Assembly (NCBI GenBank): GCA_029881255.1
Contig: JAOUMY010000006.1
Coordinates: forward strand, 1 to 64,000
Origin: Gammaproteobacteria bacterium
GTDB taxonomy: Bacteria; Pseudomonadota; Gammaproteobacteria; S012-40
DNA length: 64,000 nucleotides
Direction: 5' to 3'
In this document: positions 3,085 to 54,049 of the stretch, piece after piece
How the letters are laid out: each line of letters opens with the position of its first letter
Position numbering within the stretch: the first letter of the stretch is position 1
The notes under the pieces: generated by a model
What the model was told of the DNA's origin: nothing
Database searches by the model: none
What the model saw: only the letters and a program-made list of their open reading frames with translations
Program-made: the position numbers and the translations under genes

Positions 3085-4125
3085 CTAAAATATATCGATT
3101 TCACCGGTTTCAACATCAGCTACGATACTACCTTCCTTGACCAGAGTCTCAAAATTGTAGACTGAATTTCGTCCGTTCTCTTTTGCGTAGTAAAGTGCCT
3201 TGTCGGCTCGTTCCAGTATGATCGGAGGGTAGTCTTGCTCGGTAATTTTAGCGTAGCCAATGCTTACGGTCACTGTACCCACCATAGGGAATGAATACGT
3301 CTCCATGGTATTGCGAAAACGGTTGAGTACGTTCGCCGCTGTTTCCATTGGTATAGGAGCAAGCACGACGATGAACTCTTCTCCACCAAACCGAAATAGT
3401 AAATCGGATGACCGAAAACACTTCTTCATTTGTTGTGACAATGTCAAAATCACTTCGTCACCATACATGTGACCAAATTGATCGTTAACCCGCTTGAAAT
3501 GATCGATATCCAGGATAACCAGCCAGGCACTGGAATTATCATGTAACTGGCGAAGATTTCCTTCACAATCATCTTCAACTTCTTTTTTCTGGTTGATTTC
3601 CTGAAGTTGCAGTAAGCGTTTTAGTTTGTGATCAAAGCTACGACGGTTCAACAACCCGGTTAGCTTATCTCTCTCACTCTTATCCATAACCACCATAAAA
3701 TTATTGTAAATATTGGTAAGTCTCTCGATAATCACATGGTATTTGGATAAGTTTCTCTCACTGACTAACGATATAATCCCTAGCACACTACCTTCACGAA
3801 AAATCGGGTAGATCAATCTATAGCGACCACCCTCAATTGACATATTCACAGGCTTAACCGTTTTTGCACATTGCTGTATTGCGCTATCAGTCTTTACTGG
3901 TTTCTTTCGGTCAGACCAAATCAGGCAATTACCCTCGCCAGATCTCGCCTCTACCCGTTCAAGTTCTTCCGCTATGTGGTACTTACCGTTGCGCGCAAAA
4001 TTCAATAGTGAAACAGAGGAAACAGAAGTGAGATCGATAAGGATATTTACAAATGAACGATTCAGCATGTCGACATCGCGCTGCGAAGTCATATCGATAA
4101 TATTGTCGAGTATCCTAGCCTGCAT
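3085..4125 (-). CDS. Diguanylate cyclase (GGDEF) with N-terminal GAF-like domain
   Basis: Cytoplasmic enzyme predicted to make cyclic di-GMP from two GTP. With the start chosen here it has 346 residues. The catalytic loop GGEEF is at about 247-251. The product-inhibition I-site RSSD lies a few residues upstream, so feedback control is probably intact. Residues 1-160 resemble a GAF sensor (conserved spacing in VEARSGEGNCLIW and IYPIFREGSVLGIISLV), ligand unknown. The open frame extends to a TTG at 4269, but the extra 48 residues look unlike the family and the ATG at 4125 has GAAG 8 nt upstream. It converges on the beta-helix gene and has no operon partner. Confidence 0.85.
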   Translation of the reverse strand: MQARILDNIIDMTSQRDVDMLNRSFVNILIDLTSVSSVSLLNFARNGKYHIAEELERVEARSGEGNCLIWSDRKKPVKTDSAIQQCAKTVKPVNMSIEGGRYRLIYPIFREGSVLGIISLVSERNLSKYHVIIERLTNIYNNFMVVMDKSERDKLTGLLNRRSFDHKLKRLLQLQEINQKKEVEDDCEGNLRQLHDNSSAWLVILDIDHFKRVNDQFGHMYGDEVILTLSQQMKKCFRSSDLLFRFGGEEFIVVLAPIPMETAANVLNRFRNTMETYSFPMVGTVTVSIGYAKITEQDYPPIILERADKALYYAKENGRNSVYNFETLVKEGSIVADVETGEIDIF

Positions 4126-41975: not shown

Positions 41976-42896
41976 GTGGATTTGACTCGCAATCTGTCTC
42001 TGCAGGAACCGGTGTTGACCGGAGATGATGTTACCGCGCTTCAAAAAAGGTTGATCTTTCTTGGCTATACCACTGTCAGTGGTGCCGATGGCGTTTACGG
42101 CGAACGAACCGACAAAGCGGTTCGCGCCTTCCAGAAAGCCAACAATCTCATAGAAGACGGCGTTGTTGGCCAGTTCACCTGGAAGGCCTTATTTAAGAGT
42201 TATCTGCCGCCCTCATTCCAGTTACTCACACAGCTCAAGGCTGATCTGATTAAACCCCACGGTTTTCGCGACAGTGTTGTCTGGCAATTGGCCGACAATG
42301 GTATTTTGATCGATCACAATATGCCGGAAACAACGGGAGGCGAACCACTGACGATCGCCCGCATCTGGGAGAGCTGGGGCAGTGCCATCGAAAGACATGC
42401 GGAAGATTTTGGCGTGCCGGTTGAACTCATCATGGCGACGATATGCACCGAAACGCGAGGTGATCCAAACGCCGTGCGTATCGAGCCAGGATATGTCTCT
42501 GACCAGGAAACGCCGCATCGCGTGTCGCCCGGTTTGATGCAGACATTGATCTCAACTGCGCGTCTCTCACTGCGTGATGACAGCATTGATCGCGACTGGT
42601 TGCTTGTGCCTGAGAACGCGATCAAAGCCGGCACGGCCTATATCGCACGCCAACGCAAAGCCACGCACTTCGATCCACCCAAAGTCGCCTGCGCATATAA
42701 TGCCGGCGGCATTTATTACAACAAGGGCACAAACAATCGCTGGAAGATGCGCCAATACCCACTCGGCAGTGGCGAACACGCCGATCGGTATGTGAAGTGG
42801 TTTAATGATTGTTTTCGTTACTTCGCCTCACAGGACTTAACCCCCGGGCCAAGTTTCTATAATTTGATGGGGCAGAGTGATTTGGTAATAGGCTAG
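41976..42896 (+). CDS. Peptidoglycan-binding and lytic transglycosylase (SLT) protein
   Basis: 306 residues. A PG_binding_1 domain is at about 12-70 (DDVTALQKRLIFLGY, YGERTDKAVRAFQKANNL, DGVVGQFTWKAL). A GH23 SLT domain is at about 140-290, with the catalytic Glu in TICTETRGDPNAV, then SPGLMQTLISTARL and CAYNAGGIYY. It cleaves the MurNAc-GlcNAc bond. The GTG at 41976 is favoured: AGGAG is 8 nt upstream and the earlier GTG lies in a palindrome. No signal peptide is visible, so export may need a holin-like or non-Sec route, or it is an endolysin-like protein. Confidence 0.85.
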   Translation: MDLTRNLSLQEPVLTGDDVTALQKRLIFLGYTTVSGADGVYGERTDKAVRAFQKANNLIEDGVVGQFTWKALFKSYLPPSFQLLTQLKADLIKPHGFRDSVVWQLADNGILIDHNMPETTGGEPLTIARIWESWGSAIERHAEDFGVPVELIMATICTETRGDPNAVRIEPGYVSDQETPHRVSPGLMQTLISTARLSLRDDSIDRDWLLVPENAIKAGTAYIARQRKATHFDPPKVACAYNAGGIYYNKGTNNRWKMRQYPLGSGEHADRYVKWFNDCFRYFASQDLTPGPSFYNLMGQSDLVIG

Positions 42897-42904
42897 GATT
42901 TTCT

Positions 42905-43798
42905 TTACTTCGAAATAATCTCGATCAACGCATCGCTGAAATGACATAATTGTTCGTTCGCGCTATCGCCTCGGGCGATTGCATCTTTCAAGCTTGCGAT
43001 TTCGGGCGTGTTGGTTGTTTTGATGTCGTCCAGAAGATTCGATGCAATTGCAGATAATTTCTCAGACACCAGCTGTTTATTCTGCACCTCACACTGCATG
43101 CTCGATATGGCGGCCAGTCTACCAAGTTCGATGATATAGCCTTCCTCTGTTGATTGGCTAAGGGTATCCGCCAAACTGCTTTTCGAAATGCCCAATTCAG
43201 AAAACGCTTTTTCTCCCAGTGAATCGATCCCTTTGCCAAAACCGGTTTCAAGCAGCACTCTCACTCTGCTCTTCTTGACAAAAAACGAACGTGAAGTTGA
43301 TTGTGTAGTGGGATGTGGCGTGCGCGGCTTGACAGCCCATTGCTGAGTCAGCGATACGCCGTGTTCCTGATAGATCAAGTCGATACTTACACTGTGTGAC
43401 ACGTCTCGATTTATGACGACTAATGTGACTGACATAAGGACTACAAATGTCGCTGCGAAACCGCCTCCGATAAACCAGGTTCTCCGTCCAAAGAGAAGCT
43501 CTTTAAATTGTTGAGCCCATCCGTGCCTGTGCGCCTGCGTCGAAACGGGGTCATGTTTCACCGAGTCCCGACGTTCATCAAAAAGGGAATTGACCTCGAC
43601 ACAATGTATCCAGCGCTCGTAAACATCCGCTGCATTCGCGATATGTGACAATACCTGCGCTTTGCGGGTTTCATCAAGTCGTCCATAAAACAGCATGATG
43701 AGATCTTCATCGCTCGGCATGTGACCGACCGCCGCCGCCTTAGCACCACCAAGCTGAATCCCCACATAGGCTAGCGCATTTTCTTTTTTGTCAGACAT
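42905..43798 (-). CDS. Membrane anti-sigma-like protein of the caspase cluster
   Basis: 297 residues. The N-terminal region (SDEDLIMLFYGRLDETRKAQVLSHIANAADVYERWIHC) follows the helical anti-sigma domain pattern, but without the usual zinc HxxxCxxC. One membrane segment lies at about 111-130 (FIGGGFAATFVVLMSVTLVVI, in parts). The remaining 165 residues are periplasmic, with a beta stretch and helices. It lies 91 nt after the sigma-factor gene on the same strand, which is the usual sigma/anti-sigma order. Its role is inferred from position and topology. Confidence 0.7.
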   Translation of the reverse strand: MSDKKENALAYVGIQLGGAKAAAVGHMPSDEDLIMLFYGRLDETRKAQVLSHIANAADVYERWIHCVEVNSLFDERRDSVKHDPVSTQAHRHGWAQQFKELLFGRRTWFIGGGFAATFVVLMSVTLVVINRDVSHSVSIDLIYQEHGVSLTQQWAVKPRTPHPTTQSTSRSFFVKKSRVRVLLETGFGKGIDSLGEKAFSELGISKSSLADTLSQSTEEGYIIELGRLAAISSMQCEVQNKQLVSEKLSAIASNLLDDIKTTNTPEIASLKDAIARGDSANEQLCHFSDALIEIISK

Positions 43799-43889
43799 TC
43801 AGACCATCTTTCCTTAGTGCTTGTATCGTTCCCATGCTTTAAGTATTAGTAGGACAGAAATACAAAATTGAACAAAAAAATGAATTTGT

Positions 43890-44768
43890 TCACTTCTTAT
43901 TCGTTAATTCCGAAATTCCTTCGAAGGAAATTCCGGCATCTATAAATGCAGCATGAATTCTATCCAGTGCCTTTTGTATAATGCGTCCAGGCATATACTC
44001 TGCCAGTCCAAGGGCTTGCGCGACGGTTTTACGCTTTATGCCATCTTGATAAACCATTTTCAAAATTACACGCTCCAGATCGGAGAGTTCGAGTTCCTGC
44101 CTCATACGTTTTAACTTTGAGAGCAATGCTGTTTCAACAATATGGTCATCTTCAAACACTAAACCATCAACCCGCTTGGCCGGGTCAGGGTTGTCATTCA
44201 GAATAAGACTCATGAGCATGAGCATTTGCCTGTAAAAGGCACTGGTAACATGATCGTCGGGCGTACGATAGTCTGCAATCAGATCGTCAGACGAATCCTT
44301 ATATTCCCCATCGAGCGAGGCTGCCGCAAATTCCTTATTGCTGTGACCACACCACGGTAGTTGCGCCTTGATCGTCTTTATCGCATGTCGGATGACGCTT
44401 TCTTCACGCATGTCACGAAAAAGCAGGCTATCCACTAACACGGGAATTTCCATCCGTTCAAGACAGAGCATTTTCCATATCTTGATCCAAAAGTCGCCCT
44501 GGTCACTAAGCCATTTTGGAGGACGCATACGTCCAAAGCGTTTGCGGGAAAACTCTTCCAGATAATTCTTCGCAAGAGTATGAAGAAAGGTCTCGGGTTG
44601 ACAATTACCTTGAAAGGAAGAAAGCACAGACCAGTCATCCTCACTCAGTTTCTCCAGCACATAGCTGCTGGCTTCCTGCGCGAGCCCTCCTTCGCCAAAA
44701 CGACGAACAGCTAACTGGTCTAACTTGTCCAGCCATTGCGGCCCAAAGATGATATTTTTCCAGTCCAT
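43890..44768 (-). CDS. Divergent sigma-70 family (ECF-like) RNA polymerase sigma factor
   Basis: 292 residues, longer than a typical ECF factor of about 190. A sigma2-like part spans about 30-95: VLSSFQGNCQPETFLHTLAKNYLEEF with SRKRFGR, matching the FxGxxxFxTWL-arN-lRR pattern of ECF region 2. A linker of about 130 residues with acidic stretches follows. A sigma4-like helix-turn-helix spans about 230-285 (ELSDLERVILKMVYQDG, KRKTVAQALGL, GRIIQKALDRI). It is transcribed just after the EF-hand caspase (62 nt) and before the membrane anti-sigma-like gene. It probably drives this cluster. Confidence 0.7.
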   Translation of the reverse strand: MDWKNIIFGPQWLDKLDQLAVRRFGEGGLAQEASSYVLEKLSEDDWSVLSSFQGNCQPETFLHTLAKNYLEEFSRKRFGRMRPPKWLSDQGDFWIKIWKMLCLERMEIPVLVDSLLFRDMREESVIRHAIKTIKAQLPWCGHSNKEFAAASLDGEYKDSSDDLIADYRTPDDHVTSAFYRQMLMLMSLILNDNPDPAKRVDGLVFEDDHIVETALLSKLKRMRQELELSDLERVILKMVYQDGIKRKTVAQALGLAEYMPGRIIQKALDRIHAAFIDAGISFEGISELTNKK

Positions 44769-44830
44769 GTCTTACGCGCAATGTTTGCATCCCACACCCG
44801 CACGAATATTAGCACAGACTACAGGTTTTA

Positions 44831-46642
44831 CTATTTAGCTACCCCGTCGGCAGTTACTAACTGTAGCGATGCCCTGGCTGCCGGAATCTCCTCGGCATTT
44901 AGCAGCTGAAAAAGTTTCTTGAATTCCTCCGAACCCAGATAGAAACTTTTTCCGCGCAGACCTTCATACAACTCACTATTCCGGCCAAAGGCATAGGCGA
45001 TGACATAATCCCGTCCAAAAGGAGGACGCACCTCGGATATTCTATCCAACTGCAAGGCTTCGAAGGCGGCGACGGAATTGAGTTCGGTCGCAAGATAGGG
45101 ATATATCACCGACACCAGGCCCGCGGGATCGATATTGAGCAAAAGAACGTAGGCATCCATATTGGTTCGTATAGAAAACCCGATCTCCTCGCCTAATACC
45201 GCAGTGGAACCGCGCCCACGTTGTAACATATCCAGTTCGACTTCAAACGATTGCGAAAAATCCCCGTGAACCAGAAGATCTGCCGTGGCCTGATTGATAA
45301 CCGCGTCTTTAATCGCCGCAGGATTTCCATTTTTCACTTTGGCAATCAAATCACCGGCATTACTTAACAACAATACATGACTCGGCGTTTGCCTTATCTC
45401 CAATTGATACGCGTCGCTACTGATTGCAATATCAGTTATCTCGCCGAGAATCTTGCGCAGCTTAGGGTCGAGACTGCTGTCGAGATATACCGGGAATTTT
45501 CTTTGATAAACAATATTTGGCGTCTGTCCGATATCGACGGTCTTAACTCGCGGTGACTGAACTTTTTGTTTCGTCACGCGTGCAGAAACCTGTTCGCCAG
45601 TGGATCGCGTACTGAACAATTCTCTATAGGCAAGATTACCTTTGTCCTCTGCCAGCGACGGAAGCGCCTGCGGCGTGTGTTCAAATCCACGAATTCGCAT
45701 CAGGTTTCTGACCGAGGTTTTTAACTCACCATAGGTTATCCGTCCGTCCTGATCCAGGTCGGCATTGATTTCTCCGTGCAGTATGCGTAACAAAGAATCG
45801 GTAAACGCGCCGTGTGGCTTACCGTCAACAGTCGGATAGACTGGAAGTAGTTTTGGGGGAATATCGAGTGCTCGCTCGTCTTCACCGGCAGCGGACAGAT
45901 AATAGATATTCTTGTATGGATAAGGATCGGCTTGTTCGGGCTCTGCCTGCTGCGTCGTTTCCGGTTTCTTTCTTTGTGCCAACCAATCCAAATCATCGGT
46001 CAACCCTTTGTAACTCATGACTTCCGAAATATTCATACTCCGAAATTCCGTATTCGCGACTTTATAGCGACTGCGCACGGTATTCCCGGAAAAACAGGCA
46101 TCGATAACCACAAACACATCGCGCCCACTTTCGTCTAATGCGGTAAACAAAGGGCGCAAATCACGTTTGCCAACTATGAGCCTGTCCACGATTTCTTCAC
46201 GATTTCCGGCGCTAAACACGTCTACTGGAATAAACGCCCCGGATGTCGTCGGCAGAACCCGTTCGAGCCCCTTGGTATTATCGCTTAATACATCTTGAAT
46301 ACCACTGTCATGGGCACTCGTTCCGTGACCACTCATGTAGATAAATATGCTATCGCCTTTTTTGGTTTTACTATGTAACTGGGAAATTTTTCTGATGATG
46401 TTGTCATGCGTGCCTTCTTTATCAAGCACAACATCTATTTTGTCTGGATCGAAACCCCATTTCTTGATCAATACTTTTTGAACCGCGTTGACATCATTCA
46501 CCGGCCCGGTTAACGCGCGGGTGGGATACGCGCCAACGCCAATCAATAACGCATGTTTTTCGGCTATGGCATTGCCGGTATAGAGCATTCCCAGACATGC
46601 ACACACGATGGCGATACGGCGTTTTGTTTTATTCCTTAACAT
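44831..46642 (-). CDS. Exported caspase-like protease with EF-hand and DUF4384-like domain
   Basis: 603 residues. Signal peptide to about NAIA (26). The peptidase C14 domain is at about 28-285, with the catalytic pair His106 (YMSGHGTS) and Cys183 (VIDACFSGN), both intact. A canonical EF-hand loop follows at 295-306 (DLDQDGRITYGE: Asp at 295, 297 and 299, Gly300, Ile302, Glu306). The C-terminal part, about 470-600, resembles DUF4384 (IGFSIRTNMDAYVLLLNID, LVSVIYPY). Calcium is a known activator of metacaspases, so regulation by calcium is plausible. The OmpA-like gene is 26 nt upstream. Confidence 0.85.
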   Translation of the reverse strand: MLRNKTKRRIAIVCACLGMLYTGNAIAEKHALLIGVGAYPTRALTGPVNDVNAVQKVLIKKWGFDPDKIDVVLDKEGTHDNIIRKISQLHSKTKKGDSIFIYMSGHGTSAHDSGIQDVLSDNTKGLERVLPTTSGAFIPVDVFSAGNREEIVDRLIVGKRDLRPLFTALDESGRDVFVVIDACFSGNTVRSRYKVANTEFRSMNISEVMSYKGLTDDLDWLAQRKKPETTQQAEPEQADPYPYKNIYYLSAAGEDERALDIPPKLLPVYPTVDGKPHGAFTDSLLRILHGEINADLDQDGRITYGELKTSVRNLMRIRGFEHTPQALPSLAEDKGNLAYRELFSTRSTGEQVSARVTKQKVQSPRVKTVDIGQTPNIVYQRKFPVYLDSSLDPKLRKILGEITDIAISSDAYQLEIRQTPSHVLLLSNAGDLIAKVKNGNPAAIKDAVINQATADLLVHGDFSQSFEVELDMLQRGRGSTAVLGEEIGFSIRTNMDAYVLLLNIDPAGLVSVIYPYLATELNSVAAFEALQLDRISEVRPPFGRDYVIAYAFGRNSELYEGLRGKSFYLGSEEFKKLFQLLNAEEIPAARASLQLVTADGVAK

Positions 46643-46668
46643 CCTCTCTCACCCGTCCTTTAGGTAAC

Positions 46669-47529
46669 TTACTCCATATAGACTTCAATGCGACGATTCA
46701 ATTTTTGAAGCCCTGCATCGTCACCACGGTAAAGTGGGCGCGTTTCTCCAAGCCCTCTAGTCAGTATCCGCCCGTCTAGCTCTGGCCGCATCGCAATGAT
46801 GGCGTCGGCGATGGCGCGCGCGCGTTTTTCCGACAAAATCAAATTAGGCATTTCCTCCCCGCGCGTATCCGCGTGACCAACAATGACCGCCGTTTCTCCA
46901 TTGAACTCACTATCTGCAAGTGCTTCGGCCAATACACTGACATTCTTCGCCGTGTCGTCAGAAACCTCAGTGCTATTGAAAACAAAATTTATCGCAATAT
47001 CGATAGAGGGTTTGATATCGCTGTCCAGTAAAACGGCGGAACGCCCCTGCAAGCCACGTTTGACTTGCGCGACGGTGAGCGGTTGTTCCACGCGCTTTTT
47101 ATCGAGTTCCAACATCAACTCAGGTATCCACTTTGGCGGATTGGGCAGCATATTGGTCGCTTTACGCAATATGGACAAAGGCACGCTGATCTGCCCTTGT
47201 TGTGCCAGTGACTCGGCGTAGCGCGACATGGCCAGTACGACTTCATCGTTATTCGATGCATATTTCTTAGCGTCTTTAAACGATGCCGCGGCGCTGGTGT
47301 AGCTTTCCTGATTCTGCTGTACTCTGCCCAACAAGAACCAGCTATCGAAACGATTACACACCGACACCGACTGTTTCAGAAGATTTTCTGCATCATCTAA
47401 CTGCCCGCGCTTCGTCGCAGCGCTTGCTTGCTCAAACAATGACTCGCCTTTGTCACAATCGTCCGCGTATGCAATGTTTATTGTGGTGATTAACATGACG
47501 GCTGCATAGACACTCTTCCAACAACACAT
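46669..47529 (-). CDS. TPR and OmpA-like peptidoglycan-anchoring protein
   Basis: 286 residues. Signal peptide to about AYAD (22). TPR-like repeats lie at about 25-115 (GESLFEQASAATKRGQLDDAENLL, read in parts, and SWFLLGRVQQNQESYTSAAASF). The OmpA C-terminal domain is at about 165-286, with the peptidoglycan-binding signature VIVGHADTRGEE, LSEKRARAIADAI and RGLGETRPL. The ATG at 47529 has GGAG 6 nt upstream and gives the signal peptide. It is probably cotranscribed with the EF-hand caspase and could tether the system to the cell wall. Confidence 0.85.
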   Translation of the reverse strand: MCCWKSVYAAVMLITTINIAYADDCDKGESLFEQASAATKRGQLDDAENLLKQSVSVCNRFDSWFLLGRVQQNQESYTSAAASFKDAKKYASNNDEVVLAMSRYAESLAQQGQISVPLSILRKATNMLPNPPKWIPELMLELDKKRVEQPLTVAQVKRGLQGRSAVLLDSDIKPSIDIAINFVFNSTEVSDDTAKNVSVLAEALADSEFNGETAVIVGHADTRGEEMPNLILSEKRARAIADAIIAMRPELDGRILTRGLGETRPLYRGDDAGLQKLNRRIEVYME

Positions 47530-47876
47530 TCTCATCTCCAGTATTTTGAACAGGCCGGTTTCAGGACCGCAAAACCTCAATTTTCTTGCTTGCGCTATTT
47601 TAGAGGGACAGTTTGTTTTTATAAACAACGAGGGGTATCAAAAAATTGGGGCCAGGCGCCTTCAGGGACATGAAAACCATGCAAGCCCGGCAAACTACAC
47701 GATCAATTATTCCTTTTATTACATATTATTATCCGATAAATATAATATTATATCTCAACCTAAGCCCTGCTATGCCTTTGTTCGAAAACGCAAGGTCAGC
47801 GTGGGGACAAAGAAGTGCTCATGCGCGACAAATCCTCCCCACGCTGGCCCAAGCCAGTCCGGATATATCATCGCCA
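47530..47876. other. Intergenic region inside the caspase cluster
   Basis: About 350 nt between the large propeller lipoprotein and the OmpA-like gene. It is the only large gap in the cluster, so a second promoter driving OmpA, caspase, sigma and anti-sigma genes is likely here. No credible ORF or hairpin was found. Confidence 0.5.
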
Positions 47877-50456
47877 CTACATAGGCTCAGTAATCAAAAC
47901 CATATCAGCATCGCCGCCCAGCGCCTGATCACCCAAGTTACCGTAAGTAAAACCGGTCAAAAAAACCAGTCCCTGCTCTTCGTCAAGCAACAAGGCATTG
48001 CCAACATCGCTGGCACCAGTCCCGTATTGCTTGCTCCATATCAGCGAGCCTTCGGGTGATAGCTTGATGAGAAATATGTCTTGTAAACCGGCATGCGCAT
48101 TTGATTCGTTCGATACGGTGCCCTCTGTTGACCCGGTAACATATATCTCGCCAACAGAGCTTACGACAACATCGTGCCCCTGCGTCCAGGCGCCCGCATC
48201 GATTTGGTAGGACCATATCTTGTTCAAGTTACTGTCGAGTTTAATCACAAAAACATCGGCGCGGCCGAATGTGTTCTTAGTCAAATTGTCACCGATCAAT
48301 CCGCCCGTCATCCCCGTAATAATGAGTTCCCCATTCTGGTCGAGCGTCATTGCATACGCATAATCGGTACTAAGCGTACCCAGTTGTACTAATTGCGTTC
48401 TATCGCCTTCTGGCGTGTACCTGGCGACAAAATAATCCCAGTCGCCACTATTACTACCTGGGCCCGTTAGTTCTGATGCTGTCGAGCCTATCGCGTAAAT
48501 CGAATCATCCGCGGCGACCACGACATCATTGCATTTGGTCGAGGCCGAGCCTATCGTACGCGACCAGATCTCCGCACCGGTTTCGTCCGCCTTCAACACA
48601 GAACATAGCTGTGCTGTTTCGTTTCGCCAGCCGCCAACAATAATGTTATTGCCTGAATCAACCTTTATTGATGTGGCCCTACCTCGGCCTGGAGAAAACG
48701 CCCACATCAATACGCCGGTGGCATCGTATTTTGCGTAAAACTGATCAAAGTCTCCGTCGCCTGCTATTGCACCACCAAAGTCTCCACCGGTTTCACCGCT
48801 AACCAGGATGTCACCCAGCAAATCCACGGCGATGGAGCGACCGTATTCCTCACCAATAGATCCACTTTGTTGCCGCCATTGTTCGACACCGTTGGGATTA
48901 ATATTCACCAGCACAATGTCCTGACTGCCGATATGGCTGCTAGTGCCCGCAAAGTTTCCGGAGCTATTACCAGTGATCAATAAATCGCTGGCGTTTGACA
49001 TCGTCATGCCTATTCCCCAGTCGAGTCCATCCGACGTACCGATTTGTTCTATTGATGAACGATTTGGAAACACTTCGACAGGGTCTGATGCGATTTCATG
49101 TCCACCACTAAATGTGGCGACGACAACTGCGTAGTAGCGTTGCCCATTGTCCAGCGGAGTGATCACTGCTGGAGAAGTCACCGACGGAAACAGTCTTGCG
49201 TCTGTAAAATCCGGATAAAACTTATAATTGAAATCTGGATTACTTGAGAGATAAATTGAATAGGACTGAGCGCCAGCGGCATTCCATGATAGCGTTGCCT
49301 TGCCGCTACCCGACTCCACCACTGGTGTTATCTGCGCAAAACAAAACACCTGGATATTGTTTACATCGCCGCTAACGACACCTACGCCACCGGTCACCGA
49401 GCATCTCTGCCCAACCGGCGGATTGCTAACGCTAAGCTGAAAACTATCCCCGGCCAGCAGAGTGTTAGGAAAACTAATCAGGGAATTAACCTGCAATTGT
49501 GCCGCAGTCACCGTAAGCGGAGTAAACTGATTTAGTTGCATCGATATTTCGCCGCCGGTGATACCGAAAAGACTCGCACTAATGGTATACGATTGGTCAA
49601 CAGGCTGTGGATCGGCCTGATTTTTCAAGACGCTAATGGCCTGCTCAACACTGGCAGAGTTTCCGCTACTGTCATACGCCGTCCACAACACTGTCGTTGA
49701 GCCGATGCCTATCGTCATTGGCAGGCTTGCGTTCAATTCGATTCGATCTGGAAAAAGCTCTTCCACCACGGGCGGACTTAGTGTTTCAAAAGTATAACTA
49801 TCGGCTGATGTGTGCTGCACAATCGGATCGGGGGTAATAAATACTGGCGGAGTGGTATCTATGATGGTGACAAGTTGGGTATCACTCATACTATGATCCG
49901 CATCTCGAATAACCCAGATTACCTCGGTCTGGCCTAAAGGAAACCCCTGGCCCGGCGCATCATTGAGTATGACGGTACTTGCTTCGTCAAATCCAGAACC
50001 ATTCGTCGTCCCCAGCAGCACCTTGGTAAACTCAGCACTCGCCTCCATCGTTACATCTGCTGGCGCATGAAACTCTCGCTTTTCTGCGCAATCAATGTCT
50101 ATAACAATTTCGCTGTCATCTACCACTCTGCCGGTCGAATTATTCAACTCACAATGCTGAATATCCGAACTTTCATCGATTGCAACGGTGTAATGACTTC
50201 CCACATTCAACGGTGTCTGAAAGGTATATCGTCCGTCCTCATCGACGATCAAACTGTCATTAAATTCCAGTCCCAGCTTGCGCAGGGTAACTTTACCCTT
50301 ATTAATGAGGATGAGTTCACCGTCAAGATTTTCAACATCGACTGAAACGAATATGGATTTGGTTTCCGTACCACCGATACCACAGGCAGACAGTAGCAAA
50401 ACTGAGAAAACGAGAAGCAGGGAATTAGTCACAACATTTCGCACGCGTTGGAACAC
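47877..50456 (-). CDS. Large lipoprotein with HYR and SBBP-type beta-propeller repeats
   Basis: 859 residues. The lipobox is LLLSACG (lipidated Cys25). HYR-type Ig domains lie at about 135-285 (HAPADVTMEASAEFTKV, LGQTEVIWVIRDADHS, STTVLWTAYDSSGNSASVEQ). A fibronectin-like domain is at about 385-470. From about 475 to the end there are seven or so propeller blades of the SBBP kind (GDILVSGETGGDFGG, IYVTGSTEGTV, QGLVFLTGFTYGN). Likely surface-exposed and involved in protein or substrate binding. It lies 3 nt after the barrel gene, a clear operon junction. Confidence 0.8.
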   Translation of the reverse strand: MFQRVRNVVTNSLLLVFSVLLLSACGIGGTETKSIFVSVDVENLDGELILINKGKVTLRKLGLEFNDSLIVDEDGRYTFQTPLNVGSHYTVAIDESSDIQHCELNNSTGRVVDDSEIVIDIDCAEKREFHAPADVTMEASAEFTKVLLGTTNGSGFDEASTVILNDAPGQGFPLGQTEVIWVIRDADHSMSDTQLVTIIDTTPPVFITPDPIVQHTSADSYTFETLSPPVVEELFPDRIELNASLPMTIGIGSTTVLWTAYDSSGNSASVEQAISVLKNQADPQPVDQSYTISASLFGITGGEISMQLNQFTPLTVTAAQLQVNSLISFPNTLLAGDSFQLSVSNPPVGQRCSVTGGVGVVSGDVNNIQVFCFAQITPVVESGSGKATLSWNAAGAQSYSIYLSSNPDFNYKFYPDFTDARLFPSVTSPAVITPLDNGQRYYAVVVATFSGGHEIASDPVEVFPNRSSIEQIGTSDGLDWGIGMTMSNASDLLITGNSSGNFAGTSSHIGSQDIVLVNINPNGVEQWRQQSGSIGEEYGRSIAVDLLGDILVSGETGGDFGGAIAGDGDFDQFYAKYDATGVLMWAFSPGRGRATSIKVDSGNNIIVGGWRNETAQLCSVLKADETGAEIWSRTIGSASTKCNDVVVAADDSIYAIGSTASELTGPGSNSGDWDYFVARYTPEGDRTQLVQLGTLSTDYAYAMTLDQNGELIITGMTGGLIGDNLTKNTFGRADVFVIKLDSNLNKIWSYQIDAGAWTQGHDVVVSSVGEIYVTGSTEGTVSNESNAHAGLQDIFLIKLSPEGSLIWSKQYGTGASDVGNALLLDEEQGLVFLTGFTYGNLGDQALGGDADMVLITEPM

Positions 50457-50459
50457 AGG

Positions 50460-51215
50460 CTATAGTCCTACCGTATAACTCAACCCGGCGATCAACCCAT
50501 GTTCGCTAATTGCAGAACCAGAAAGGCTACCGAGCAAAACATTTTGTCGATATTTGTAGCCCGCAGAAAATCGCCAATCAGGGGCAAGCTGAGGTAACCA
50601 GGCAAGGCCAATCTCACCTGTCAGATTTACCCCTTTGTGTGCTGAACTTTGTGAGCCATCGGAAACTTCGCTATCGATCAGTAATAGTCCCAGGTTTTGA
50701 TAAGACAACAGACTCGTTGCAAGGGGTTGATAGGCGCTAATCCCTCCCCCCACTCCGACATCTATCTGTCCGATATTTGAATTGGTGTTGGCGGTAAAAA
50801 AACCGGTATCCATAAGTTCTGTTTTTGTCGAAAGAAACTTTGCGTCAACAAATGCCGCAATACGCTTACCGAAATAGTAGCCCAGATAGAGATCCACATC
50901 GGCGGTTTGCGTTTTGATATCAAGCCCGACAACAGAAGAGTGGACATCACCACCACTCAGATTGATTCCGCCAAACCATTCCCCTTGGCTAACAGCAATT
51001 GTTAATCCAGGAAAGTGCGCAGTTTGATATACTTCACTCAGATATTGTTGCGACGATACATTCGTCTGCATAGACCAGTATTTTAATGCGGAAGTGATGC
51101 GAGTTTCCTCGCTACCGAAGGCAGACGAGACTGAAAACGCATACACACTCAACATAAAAATTAGCATTTTCCTGAGAGATTTTTTGAAAAGCGTCGTTGT
51201 TCTTTTTTGTACCAT
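50460..51215 (-). CDS. Outer-membrane beta-barrel-like protein of the caspase cluster
   Basis: 251 residues. Signal sequence ends near SSAFGS (about 33). Alternating hydrophobic strands are seen (GLTIAVSQGEWFGGINLSG, TADVDLYLGYYFGKRIAAFV, LAPDWRFSAGYKYRQN), and the last strand is LIAGLSYTVGL. This is the pattern of a small outer-membrane barrel, although it ends in Leu, not Phe. Family not recognised. It lies 11 nt after the first caspase gene and 3 nt before the lipoprotein gene. Confidence 0.7.
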   Translation of the reverse strand: MVQKRTTTLFKKSLRKMLIFMLSVYAFSVSSAFGSEETRITSALKYWSMQTNVSSQQYLSEVYQTAHFPGLTIAVSQGEWFGGINLSGGDVHSSVVGLDIKTQTADVDLYLGYYFGKRIAAFVDAKFLSTKTELMDTGFFTANTNSNIGQIDVGVGGGISAYQPLATSLLSYQNLGLLLIDSEVSDGSQSSAHKGVNLTGEIGLAWLPQLAPDWRFSAGYKYRQNVLLGSLSGSAISEHGLIAGLSYTVGL

Positions 51216-51226
51216 CGTCTTAACCC

Positions 51227-52273
51227 TTACATACTGACCAAGGGCGTGTACAACGGCTTATGCACTTCATCAAGTTCTTCCGTGTTCCGTTGTGGCTGGG
51301 TAATTTCTACCTCGATCTTTTCTCCATCAATTGCAATATTGATAGCAAACTTCACGAATACAAATTCGCCCCCTTCATGTCGCGCCCCTTGAAGCACACC
51401 TCGCTGCGGCGTTTGTTTGACTGCATCACCCACACGAACCCGGACATCGCTACTAAGTTCGGAAATAGGAAAATAGCGTTTGGAATTATCTTTCAATTCC
51501 TGTAGCAGAAAATAGGTAAACGGCGAGTGGCCAGAATTACGATAACTGTCGTCGACGTATTCATCGCCACCGGCAGCGAGCACATAAACACTCTTGCGTC
51601 GATTCAGTTTTTCGATGTAGCGAGTCGAATAGCTTCGACCCGTTTTTTCGCTACCCGCGCTGCGAGTAAGTGTTCCACTAAAACAGGAGTCGGAGATAAG
51701 CAACACATGTTGAGTGATATCGCTGAGCGCGGCGACTTTTTCCTTGATGCGTGCATTGCTCACAAACAAGGAATCATCCCAGCCCTCTGCATCAACGGGA
51801 ACCCAGTAGGCCTCACCAGTTTTTTCGTTCTTATAGCCGTGACCAGCAAAATAGATCAGCACATTGTCGCCAAAACGCGAGGTTTCTATTAAGTCGGTCA
51901 AGGCCTGGATGATTTCGCGGTAGGCGGCGTTCTTGACCACGCGCACATCAGAAAACCCATAGTCATTCTTCAGGACATTCGCCAGCTCGATCGCCCCTGG
52001 TATGGCCGTATATAACTTACCCCACACCTGTTCTTTATCCTGATACTCGTTATTACCGATGATCAGGGCGCGAAATCTACCCGCGACGATAGTATCCGTA
52101 GTGGAGTTACGGGCAAGCCCTCGCTTAACGTTTTTGGTGTCGGTGTCAGATTTTGCACTCGGGTCAGCGAAGACATCGCTTGCGCAAACCGAAAATGGCG
52201 TGAGTATTGAAGCGACTATAGTAATAGTTGCAGTAAGGTATAAGTTAAGAAGCTTCCTCACAATACTATTCAT
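51227..52273 (-). CDS. Exported caspase-like protease (peptidase C14), first gene of the cluster
   Basis: 348 residues. A hydrophobic N-terminal segment (about 8-31) predicts export. The C14 domain is at about 65-300, with His145 (YFAGHGYK) and Cys197 (LISDSCFSGT) as the intact catalytic pair. A basic/charged linker at 40-65 may be a processing region. The C-terminal 50 residues are a strand-rich add-on. The ATG at 52273 is used; a GTG three codons earlier is possible. Two caspases in one gene cluster suggest a cascade or heteromeric action. Confidence 0.85.
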   Translation of the reverse strand: MNSIVRKLLNLYLTATITIVASILTPFSVCASDVFADPSAKSDTDTKNVKRGLARNSTTDTIVAGRFRALIIGNNEYQDKEQVWGKLYTAIPGAIELANVLKNDYGFSDVRVVKNAAYREIIQALTDLIETSRFGDNVLIYFAGHGYKNEKTGEAYWVPVDAEGWDDSLFVSNARIKEKVAALSDITQHVLLISDSCFSGTLTRSAGSEKTGRSYSTRYIEKLNRRKSVYVLAAGGDEYVDDSYRNSGHSPFTYFLLQELKDNSKRYFPISELSSDVRVRVGDAVKQTPQRGVLQGARHEGGEFVFVKFAINIAIDGEKIEVEITQPQRNTEELDEVHKPLYTPLVSM

Positions 52274-52489
52274 CCCTGCCACTTGGCTATTTTTTGATCA
52301 ATTCGCACACCCAACAGGCGGCGAAAAGACTACATATTCTCGATTCGCTGTGATGCCACAGGGAAATGCCCGCAGCTGGAAAGTATACATTCTTAGTTTA
52401 GGAATAGGTAGGCATATGCCATAGCGAATTTTACGCTTTATGCCCGTCTCTCTTAACGAGAAAGCGAATATTGACACGTCACTTTCGCG

Positions 52490-53812
52490 CTAGTTTAGTC
52501 CTCTAAATATCCGCGTCTCTCTGATTCGCTCTTCAATAATATTTTGTAACTGCTGATACTCCACACTCCCCACATTTTTATAACGTTGCTTAAATGTCTT
52601 TTCGTTTAGCCCCTCAGGCAAATCTGTAATCGCCGGCATAAAATCCTTTTCTGCAAGGTTCTCATTGGCCATAAACTGTTGCACAGCCAGTGCACTTTTT
52701 TCATCTCGTGTAGCAAGTTCAGCAAAGCTGACGCCGCTACGATCAGCAATCAGATCTGCAAATGAAAAACCCGATCCCCCCATGGAGTCAGAAATTTCTT
52801 TGGCCACCCCAATTGCGTCCGCCAAGCCCATACCCGCCGCTACGGTCAGCCCCGCGGAAACGAAATAGTGTTGATACAAATCGTGGCGTTCAGATAACAA
52901 ATAGCGATGATATGCGGGAAGGACAATGCGCTCGTCCTTCTTAGGCGGCAGGTATCGTTTCAAATAAAAACCTTGTGCGTAAACGGATAGGGCAAGCAAT
53001 AAGGCCTTGTTTTCCTCTACGGCAAGATTGTTTTTTAGTGAACGTTGCAGAGCGAAGACGAACATCGGCTGTATCAACGCGGTAACACTGATCTTCTTGC
53101 TGCGCTGCGCGCGCGTAATTTTGGCCAATTCATTGGAATGAGCAATTACGCGTGCGCGTAACGCTGGAGAGATTAACAAATCCTGTCCCCGATCCTGCAA
53201 ACGTCGAAACAGTTCTGGCTGCCATTCGTAGGTCAACACGATTTTATCCGGTCTGACACGCAGGTTTCGAAGTGATGACAAGGCCGCGCGATATTCTTCA
53301 TATCGTTGGGCAGTATAGCGATGGGTATAGTCCAAAACATGTTTCAGCAGCCACGCCGGAACGTCCAGCTTACCCACTTTAAGATGTGTGATTTCTACAG
53401 TCATCAAGTCATCAACTCGAACGTCGCCCTCTAGATTGATATAGGCACCGAATATAGTGAGCGGCGAAAGCAGGGTCGCGCGTATGCCGATGTGCTGATA
53501 CTCCAGTTTTAAAACTACGTTTCCCGGTATCACACGCCTCAGGCCATATCTGGCTGCCAGATTTAGCTCATCCTCGCGCAACTCCACCAGCTTGAAATGT
53601 CGTTGACGCGCGCCGCGAGGCAAATTGTGTTCGATGATTTTTTTGATGCGTTTTACATTCTCATGGGAAAGTGGCTTGCCCGTATCGGCAACCAGGGCTG
53701 TACCAGAATGGATCAACAGCAGAAAGGACAATCCCAGCACGGGCAGCCCGATAAACAGAAAGCTCAGCACATAAACGGTAACGCGCATAAGCGCCCGGTG
53801 TGGTTCAATCAA
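52490..53812 (-). CDS. Membrane-anchored protein of unknown function
   Basis: 440 residues. One N-terminal membrane segment (about 12-35), then a mostly helical periplasmic part of about 400 residues with a beta stretch at 85-150. The segment DLIADRSGVSFAELATRDEKSA near the end is distinctive but I do not recognise it. The TTG at 53812 is used because GAGAGGG lies 8 nt upstream; the ATG at 53788 lacks one. It reads toward the caspase cluster from 216 nt away and may or may not belong to it. Confidence 0.7.
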   Translation of the reverse strand: MIEPHRALMRVTVYVLSFLFIGLPVLGLSFLLLIHSGTALVADTGKPLSHENVKRIKKIIEHNLPRGARQRHFKLVELREDELNLAARYGLRRVIPGNVVLKLEYQHIGIRATLLSPLTIFGAYINLEGDVRVDDLMTVEITHLKVGKLDVPAWLLKHVLDYTHRYTAQRYEEYRAALSSLRNLRVRPDKIVLTYEWQPELFRRLQDRGQDLLISPALRARVIAHSNELAKITRAQRSKKISVTALIQPMFVFALQRSLKNNLAVEENKALLLALSVYAQGFYLKRYLPPKKDERIVLPAYHRYLLSERHDLYQHYFVSAGLTVAAGMGLADAIGVAKEISDSMGGSGFSFADLIADRSGVSFAELATRDEKSALAVQQFMANENLAEKDFMPAITDLPEGLNEKTFKQRYKNVGSVEYQQLQNIIEERIRETRIFRGLN

Positions 53813-53922
53813 CTTACCGCCCTCTCGCTAACCCGGCTTTTCCAAAACTATGCGCCATGAAAATCACCATCACGCCTAAATGCACCACGATGCAGCAACA
53901 AAGCACAAGAACGCAAACATGC

Positions 53923-53937
53923 GCACCATATTGGTGC
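53923..53937. promoter_or_regulatory. NtrC-type dyad upstream of amtB
   Basis: GCACC-ATATT-GGTGC exactly fits the NtrC half-site pattern GCACC-N5-GGTGC. A weaker half-site GCACC-ACGAT-GCAGC lies at 53882-53896. Two imperfect sigma-54 elements follow, each GG-N10-GT instead of GG-N10-GC: GG at 53958-53959, and GG at 53993-53994. Together they suggest nitrogen-limitation control of amtB. Confidence 0.65.
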
Positions 53938-54049
53938 GATCTGATGCCGAACACTGAGGCTTACTCCTTGTTTTAACAAAGCTTTTTGAAGAGGCATAAT
54001 TCCTGTATTGCCTGCGCCCATAACGATGAATGAAATGAGAGGAGTCATA

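Follow-up and report, generated by a model that had tools for sequence, protein, structure and literature searches.

Do seven neighboring genes that bring together two exported caspase-like proteases and a sigma/anti-sigma pair constitute one envelope system? This question is raised by a locus within a 64,000-nucleotide (nt) stretch of a gammaproteobacterial genome (GCA_029881255.1, contig JAOUMY010000006.1, positions 1 to 64,000; hereafter the window). An earlier note, made from the sequence alone, had proposed a coherent seven-gene system in which periplasmic caspases sense damage or calcium and the sigma pair adjusts expression. We confirmed that the window carries the seven consecutive minus-strand genes and that they had been described correctly. 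Sequence comparisons across related genomes indicate that the cluster is two adjoining modules – a conserved core that includes the sigma pair and a mobile protease/barrel/lipoprotein trio – and not one conserved system. The seven genes are as follows:

51227..52282, minus strand: C14a, a secreted short caspase-like protease (PF00656, 9.3e-22)
50460..51215, minus strand: OMP, a small outer-membrane beta-barrel (Pfam OMP_b-brl, 6.6e-6, just under the cut-off)
47877..50456, minus strand: HYR/SBBP surface lipoprotein (Pfam SBBP, 2.4e-15; HYR, 2.3e-8; lipobox LLSAC)
46669..47529, minus strand: TPR-OmpA, a periplasmic protein (Pfam OmpA, 2e-13, plus TPR)
44831..46642, minus strand: C14b, a secreted metacaspase-like protease (Pfam C14, 5.7e-17; C-terminal DUF4384, 2.9e-8)
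43890..44768, minus strand: Sig, a divergent extracytoplasmic function (ECF)-like sigma factor (NCBIfam match below cut-off, homologues, fold model)
42905..43798, minus strand: aSig, a single-pass membrane anti-sigma-like protein (transmembrane segment, N-terminal homology; helical periplasmic domain)

The division into modules emerged from a family of 13 genomes, comprising this genome and 12 others (relatives are labeled G002-G011 etc., and loci L018 etc.). Sig homologues occur in four of the 12 other genomes. C14b was found in the window, G003, G006 and G008 only – always directly upstream of Sig-aSig and never in a family genome without Sig. C14b and Sig lie on the same strand, 62 nt apart, and their order is retained in three relatives. 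A TPR-OmpA orthologue (44% identical) stands in front of the core in G003 as well, in the same order. TPR-OmpA, C14b, Sig and aSig alone make up the conserved core.

C14a follows a different pattern. C14a or a longer relative is encoded in eight of the 13 genomes, but five family genomes that carry it lack Sig (G002, G004, G007, G009 and G011) and G008, which has Sig and C14b, lacks C14a. The small barrel sits directly behind short C14a proteins at seven of eight loci. In three of these C14a-barrel loci a large lipoprotein comes next, with a domain make-up that differs from locus to locus (HYR/SBBP; cadherin/fn3/Lcl_C; CHB_HEX/RCC1). This genome itself encodes two further C14a copies. One, at C2:74.8 kb, is accompanied by the cadherin/fn3/Lcl_C lipoprotein; the other, at C2:356 kb, lies within a type VI secretion system (T6SS) cluster (an IcmF-type gene, TagF- and PppA-like genes assigned from sequence, and a kinase) and has lost the catalytic Cys (ISEAPF). 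Within this T6SS cluster (L018:4428-11622, on C2 of this genome) the pseudo-caspase C14a and its barrel adjoin a Ser/Thr kinase and a Sel1-C14 lipoprotein. Only in this genome did we see all seven genes in exactly this composition; the closest version, in G003, has C14a and the barrel inverted. Because C14a lives apart from Sig in five family genomes, is absent from G008, and forms a module of its own with the barrel elsewhere, the proposed seven-gene unity is not supported. The conserved co-occurrence that the earlier note had suggested searching for exists for C14b, which in this family always lies beside Sig, but not for C14a.

We next considered the sigma and anti-sigma assignments. Sig (292 amino acids) alone had no significant Pfam match. 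The NCBIfam sigma70-ECF model aligns to its residues 21-272 (1.2e-7, below the curated cut-off), and several of 22 Sig homologues match Sigma70 region 4 or region 2 (Sigma70_r4_2 at 1.8e-7). An AlphaFold model of Sig (mean pLDDT 81) contains sigma2 and sigma4 domains that resemble those of SigR, sigmaE and other ECF factors at 2-3 Å (sigma2 against SigR/sigmaE: 1h3l, 2.2 Å over 69 residues, and 4lup, 2.4 Å over 74; sigma4 against sigmaE: 2h27, 2.6 Å over 67). These domains are separated by a conserved ~85-residue segment (about 85-170) with invariant W98, C102, L103, E104, R105, I133 and K134 (a W...CLER motif). ECF factors are compact, with a short linker between sigma2 and sigma4, and Sig departs from this plan; because of the long conserved segment, we term it ECF-like and place it in no numbered ECF group.

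aSig has the layout of a membrane anti-sigma factor, with a cytoplasmic N-terminal anti-sigma domain, one transmembrane helix (near residues 111-129) and a periplasmic domain. At the N-terminus it shares homology with three ECF-cognate anti-sigma-like proteins, two from this genome and one from a relative (hhalign E 7.4e-5, score 27.2; 50 shuffles reach at most 20.6). The aSig homologue at locus L046 retains a zinc-type H-x3-C-x2-C motif, and a single-pass protein with a similar N-terminus follows Sig in most loci examined. A PDB fold search with the whole aSig model returned no anti-sigma match and nothing with Z >=5. aSig is predicted to inhibit the neighboring Sig by binding it. The sigma/anti-sigma pair that had been claimed for this locus is credible, and the pair is physically tied to caspases well beyond chance.

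Evidence for this tie comes from a broader survey. A single-sequence search of genome contigs with Sig found no relatives; an alignment-based scan of named genomes recovered 22 loci, in Marinobacterium, Pontibacterium, Microbulbifer, Litorivivens, Alcanivorax, Marinobacter and metagenome-assembled genomes (MAGs). Among 22 Sig loci, with the window and its relatives counted, 10 have a C14 gene within 10 kb, whereas 1.2% would be expected by chance for any one locus, given the 49 C14 genes present in 83 Mb. The corresponding P is about 4e-14 ungrouped and about 7e-6 when counted as four of 11 lineages by our rough lineage grouping. On a Sig tree the caspase label takes four changes, fewer than nearly all shuffles (3/500), so linkage to a caspase is clustered but has been repeatedly gained or lost. 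The linked caspases are of mixed type: Marinobacterium and Pontibacterium carry an FDSCHSG-type C14 and a WD40-C14 protein.

Exported caspases also accompany other sigma factors within the family. This genome encodes two more operons in which a canonical ECF sigma factor is combined with a single-pass membrane anti-sigma-like protein and an exported C14 protein:

L021:5839-8754 (C19): ECF/caspase operon with an exported C14 protein of 527 amino acids
L022:6396-10233 (C18): ECF/caspase operon with an exported C14 protein of 820 amino acids

One operon of the same make-up is present in G010. In G006 (L098:7258-10749) C14a and its barrel follow a zinc-type anti-sigma-like protein and a very divergent sigma-like protein of a third type, with a DUF4384 gene behind. 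This sigma-like protein has a Cys-rich N-terminus and is barely alignable to Sig (hhalign E 0.027); a relative of it lies at L102:8194-9000, and G011 encodes a relative near DUF4384 and C14 genes. DUF4384, being found repeatedly at these loci, accompanies exported caspases and their sigma pairs. It is also the top but weak match for the periplasmic parts of the C18/C19 anti-sigma proteins (E 0.039 and 0.1, below cut-off), which makes a DUF4384-like character of canonical anti-sigma periplasmic domains only a lead. Collectively, these loci suggest that exported caspases have been repeatedly recruited beside different sigma/anti-sigma pairs.

Each of the two proteases in the window matches PF00656 above the cut-off, as expected of the C14 p20 fold, and has a complete His-Cys dyad (motifs AGHG/SDSCFSG and SGHG/IDACFSG) and a signal peptide read by eye. 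The nearest solved structure by sequence is the paracaspase MALT1 for C14a (best PDB match 3.1e-5) and eukaryotic metacaspases for C14b. An EF-hand-like loop in C14b (DLDQDGRITYGEL), with counterparts in two relatives (DMDQNGDISYSEL and DSNQDGYTSYSEL), makes the calcium control proposed in the earlier note conceivable. C14a proteins (window, L019, L024, L095, L096, L097 and L018) end in a short, conserved, hydrophobic P-L-P-x-F/L/M-like tail that follows a variable linker, as if it docked to the barrel or another partner.

The earlier note had also suggested looking for a promoter motif shared within the cluster, and such an element (TGTCCNWCTWAWW) is common to the upstream regions of the window and G003 clusters. 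The features concerned in the window are:

47598..47610, minus strand: TGTCCCTCTAAAA element, preceding the ATG of TPR-OmpA by 81 nt
43866..43895, minus strand: hairpin located at the stop codon of Sig and immediately upstream of the 43856 element
43844..43856, minus strand: TGTCCTACTAATA element between Sig and aSig, 58 nt upstream of the aSig start

That a shared element precedes both TPR-OmpA and aSig supports autoregulation, with Sig as its putative reader. Of the seven exact matches in the whole G003 genome, five are in the 6.25-kb cluster (Poisson P about 3e-12, with the pattern partly drawn from these sites); they lie upstream of aSig, TPR-OmpA, C14a and a DUF4384 lipoprotein gene, with one facing away from C14a. 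Two of the eight matches in this genome are within the cluster (P about 1e-4), and one of two Marinobacter matches, seen before the pattern was fixed, lies 78 nt before a TPR-OmpA gene. Outside the window and G003 clusters, TGTCCNWCTWA matches five times in the 150 nt preceding genes, where 0.13 matches would be expected, and none of 1000 shuffled patterns reached five. These are three related Alcanivorax VWA/YfbK sites, the Marinobacter TPR-OmpA site and one gene of a Cellvibrionaceae MAG. The element stands 36-81 nt from the start codon before anti-sigma, TPR-OmpA and YfbK genes (48 nt before the Alcanivorax VWA/YfbK gene). We read it as a candidate -10-side promoter element of Sig, with its -35 partner unproven. 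A sigma-70-type promoter scan was uninformative, its 10 matches being fewer than the 16.3 in shuffles.

The two further C14a copies in this genome (L018, L019) are not preceded by the element, and its other matches here are mostly in coding DNA; we therefore claim no genome-wide regulon. In most other genomes, counts of the strict form across the whole genome did not exceed a reversed-pattern control, so this form is useful mainly in this family. A GAACAAA...TTTGTTC hairpin is followed directly by the TGTCC element both in the window (43856-43895, at the sigma stop codon) and at L043 (around 3427-3485). Separately, two genomes share TGTGCTAAYATT followed by CGTG in the short stretch separating C14b from Sig (about 44775-44805 in the window; about 1575-1605 in L023), possibly a second regulatory element.

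The spacing of the genes bears on how they might be transcribed. With TPR-OmpA counted from ATG 47529, which sits behind a GGAG and is preferred over the mechanically assigned TTG 47628, the junctions are 11, 3, ~347, 26, 62 and 91 nt, in agreement with those originally reported. C14a probably starts at ATG 52273, as the first reading of this DNA had implied. A strong hairpin in the 347-nt gap between the lipoprotein and TPR-OmpA (47794-47849, minus strand; -36.1 kcal/mol, z -3.5) is a possible transcript boundary; Rfam contains no family matching anywhere across 42500-54000, hairpins included. Because this gap combines a strong hairpin with a promoter-like element, and the Sig/aSig gap holds another element, a single transcription unit across all seven genes is unlikely. 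The lipoprotein encoded before the gap also matches the NCBIfam SBBP lipoprotein model (1.1e-37, below cut-off), and TPR-OmpA, encoded after it, contains an OmpA peptidoglycan-binding domain.

What might the core do? Our tentative reading – favored, but held at somewhat less than even confidence – is that the core forms a self-regulating switch for envelope responses, with C14b in the signaling path. aSig would hold Sig at the inner membrane until an envelope disturbance, hypothetically damage, activates periplasmic C14b, with peptidoglycan-binding TPR-OmpA as scaffold or sensor and calcium perhaps involved through the EF-hand-like loop. Activated C14b would then help to remove aSig, possibly by cutting an exposed periplasmic loop at the conserved basic residue R170. 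Freed Sig would transcribe the genes behind TGTCCNWCTWAWW-type promoters, namely TPR-OmpA/C14b(/Sig) and aSig itself, and in G003 also the C14a protease and the DUF4384 lipoprotein. The C14a/barrel/lipoprotein trio would be a separate surface module that became attached. The R170 column is R or K in all nine caspase-linked aSig proteins aligned, and R170 sits in a low-confidence loop of the aSig model (157-177). Orthocaspases cleave after basic residues (PMC6426788). R170 is only a lead as a candidate cut site.

What we observed is the gene content, the conserved core, the caspase linkage and the shared element; the direction of signaling, the stimulus, the cutting of aSig and the reading of the element by Sig are inferred. 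Several observations count against such a switch. Of nine aSig proteins that have no caspase close by, seven are also basic at the R170 column, and the alignment around it is weak (12-29% identity). Roughly half of the Sig-aSig pairs lack a caspase in their vicinity, and in a Cellvibrionaceae MAG with Sig-aSig no C14 gene was found at all, so the pair can function on its own. No clear -35 partner accompanies the element, which is absent upstream of Sig in G008 and of C14a in the window; its counts in the window, G003 and Marinobacter are partly circular, as it was first spotted there.

In an alternative reading the caspases are output only. aSig would then be governed by the usual site-1/site-2 proteases or by a ligand, and the caspases would simply be made under Sig control, to cut proteins of the envelope or of foreign origin in repair, remodeling or killing. 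Sig-aSig pairs without a local caspase, such as the Alcanivorax pair beside a VWA/YfbK gene with the element, fit this alternative, as does the presence of the element before caspase genes in G003, where outputs would show it. We judge it nearly as likely as the switch, at about one chance in three. It is set back by the core caspase, whose gene is linked to Sig more tightly than a simple target requires; by the emergence of sigma/anti-sigma/caspase triplets with at least two other sigma types; and by the C-terminal periplasmic domain of aSig, which is most strongly conserved among caspase-linked members.

The upstream half of the cluster has its own alternative, compatible with either account of the core: C14a, the barrel and the lipoprotein may be an independent surface-protein maturation or display module in which barrel and protease process or place the lipoprotein, their position beside the sigma core being accidental. 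The recurrent C14a-barrel pairing, three times with unlike large lipoproteins and often in genomes without Sig, and the conserved P-L-P-x-F-like motif ending the protease tails argue for such a module. Set against this, the G003 C14a sits in the same cluster with an element 178 nt upstream, and the lost catalytic Cys of the T6SS-cluster copy implies that processing is not the sole role; we hold the case to be evenly balanced. Bacterial caspases act in defense elsewhere, and both proteases match the PADLOC caspase model (1.1e-22 and 4.2e-8), which raises the idea that they kill infected cells in anti-phage or abortive-infection defense. Yet both are exported, their neighbors are envelope proteins, and the other PADLOC matches are only ZorB models hitting a generic OmpA/MotB domain. 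Among the seven proteins only these generic caspase and OmpA/MotB models match, and no catalogued anti-phage system is represented by its full gene set. We consider a defense role very improbable.

For the switch reading, CASP is the closest mechanistic precedent, with RseA/DegS as the precedent for its membrane version. RpoE/RseA is controlled by DegS and RseP, and in RpoE/RseA and AlgU/MucA the site-1 protease is a PDZ serine protease (DegS/AlgW). Sig and aSig resemble these systems in pairing a sigma factor with a single-pass inner-membrane anti-sigma protein that has a periplasmic domain, and an envelope signal would be expected; they differ in that the tightly linked protease is a C14 caspase. 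In CASP (type III-E CRISPR), target RNA triggers Csx29, a caspase-like TPR-CHAT protease that is bound to Cas7-11, and Csx29 then cleaves Csx30, which inhibits an ECF sigma factor with motifs in its own locus (PMC10028731). As in CASP, the core encodes a caspase-like protease, an ECF-like sigma factor and its putative inhibitor together, with candidate sigma motifs in the locus; unlike in CASP, the part of the protease falls to an exported C14 protein, and the putative inhibitor sits in the membrane. By Pfam the proteases here are C14, not CHAT, which sets them apart from TPR-CHAT/Cas7-11, though no genome search for Cas7-11 was made. A broader proposal is that a periplasmic caspase-family protease is dedicated to site-1 cleavage of a membrane anti-sigma factor. 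This would be a counterpart of CASP signaling in the envelope that needs no RNA and was recruited several times with unrelated sigma families, and we regard it as rather doubtful. For the role of exported bacterial caspases, the combination of core, sigma switch, candidate promoter and candidate cut site makes signaling from envelope to transcription by proteolysis directly testable, and the recurrence of exported caspases beside different sigma/anti-sigma pairs within a single family suggests that this is a general principle, not a curiosity.

The earlier note knew of no named system with this composition. That statement stands for this precise set of genes, but operons combining a metacaspase with a sigma factor had been described in 2012 in Myxococcus and others (PMC3501461). 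The 2012 survey reported sigma-70/metacaspase operons in Myxococcus, Anaeromyxobacter, Haliangium, Sorangium, Ralstonia and Fibrobacter, giving no mechanism, and no multi-metacaspase operons in Gammaproteobacteria (PMC3501461). The window resembles those operons in having a C14 gene and a sigma-70-type gene together, in a putative operon. It differs from them in that the sigma factor is divergent and ECF-like, has a long segment between its domains and is followed by a membrane anti-sigma protein, and in that two secreted C14 proteins are encoded along with a barrel and a lipoprotein. New here are the divergent sigma factor with its anti-sigma partner, the core of four genes, the shared upstream element and the recurrence of such pairing within one family. 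OmpA domains were listed in 14 of the metacaspase operons of the 2012 survey (PMC3501461).

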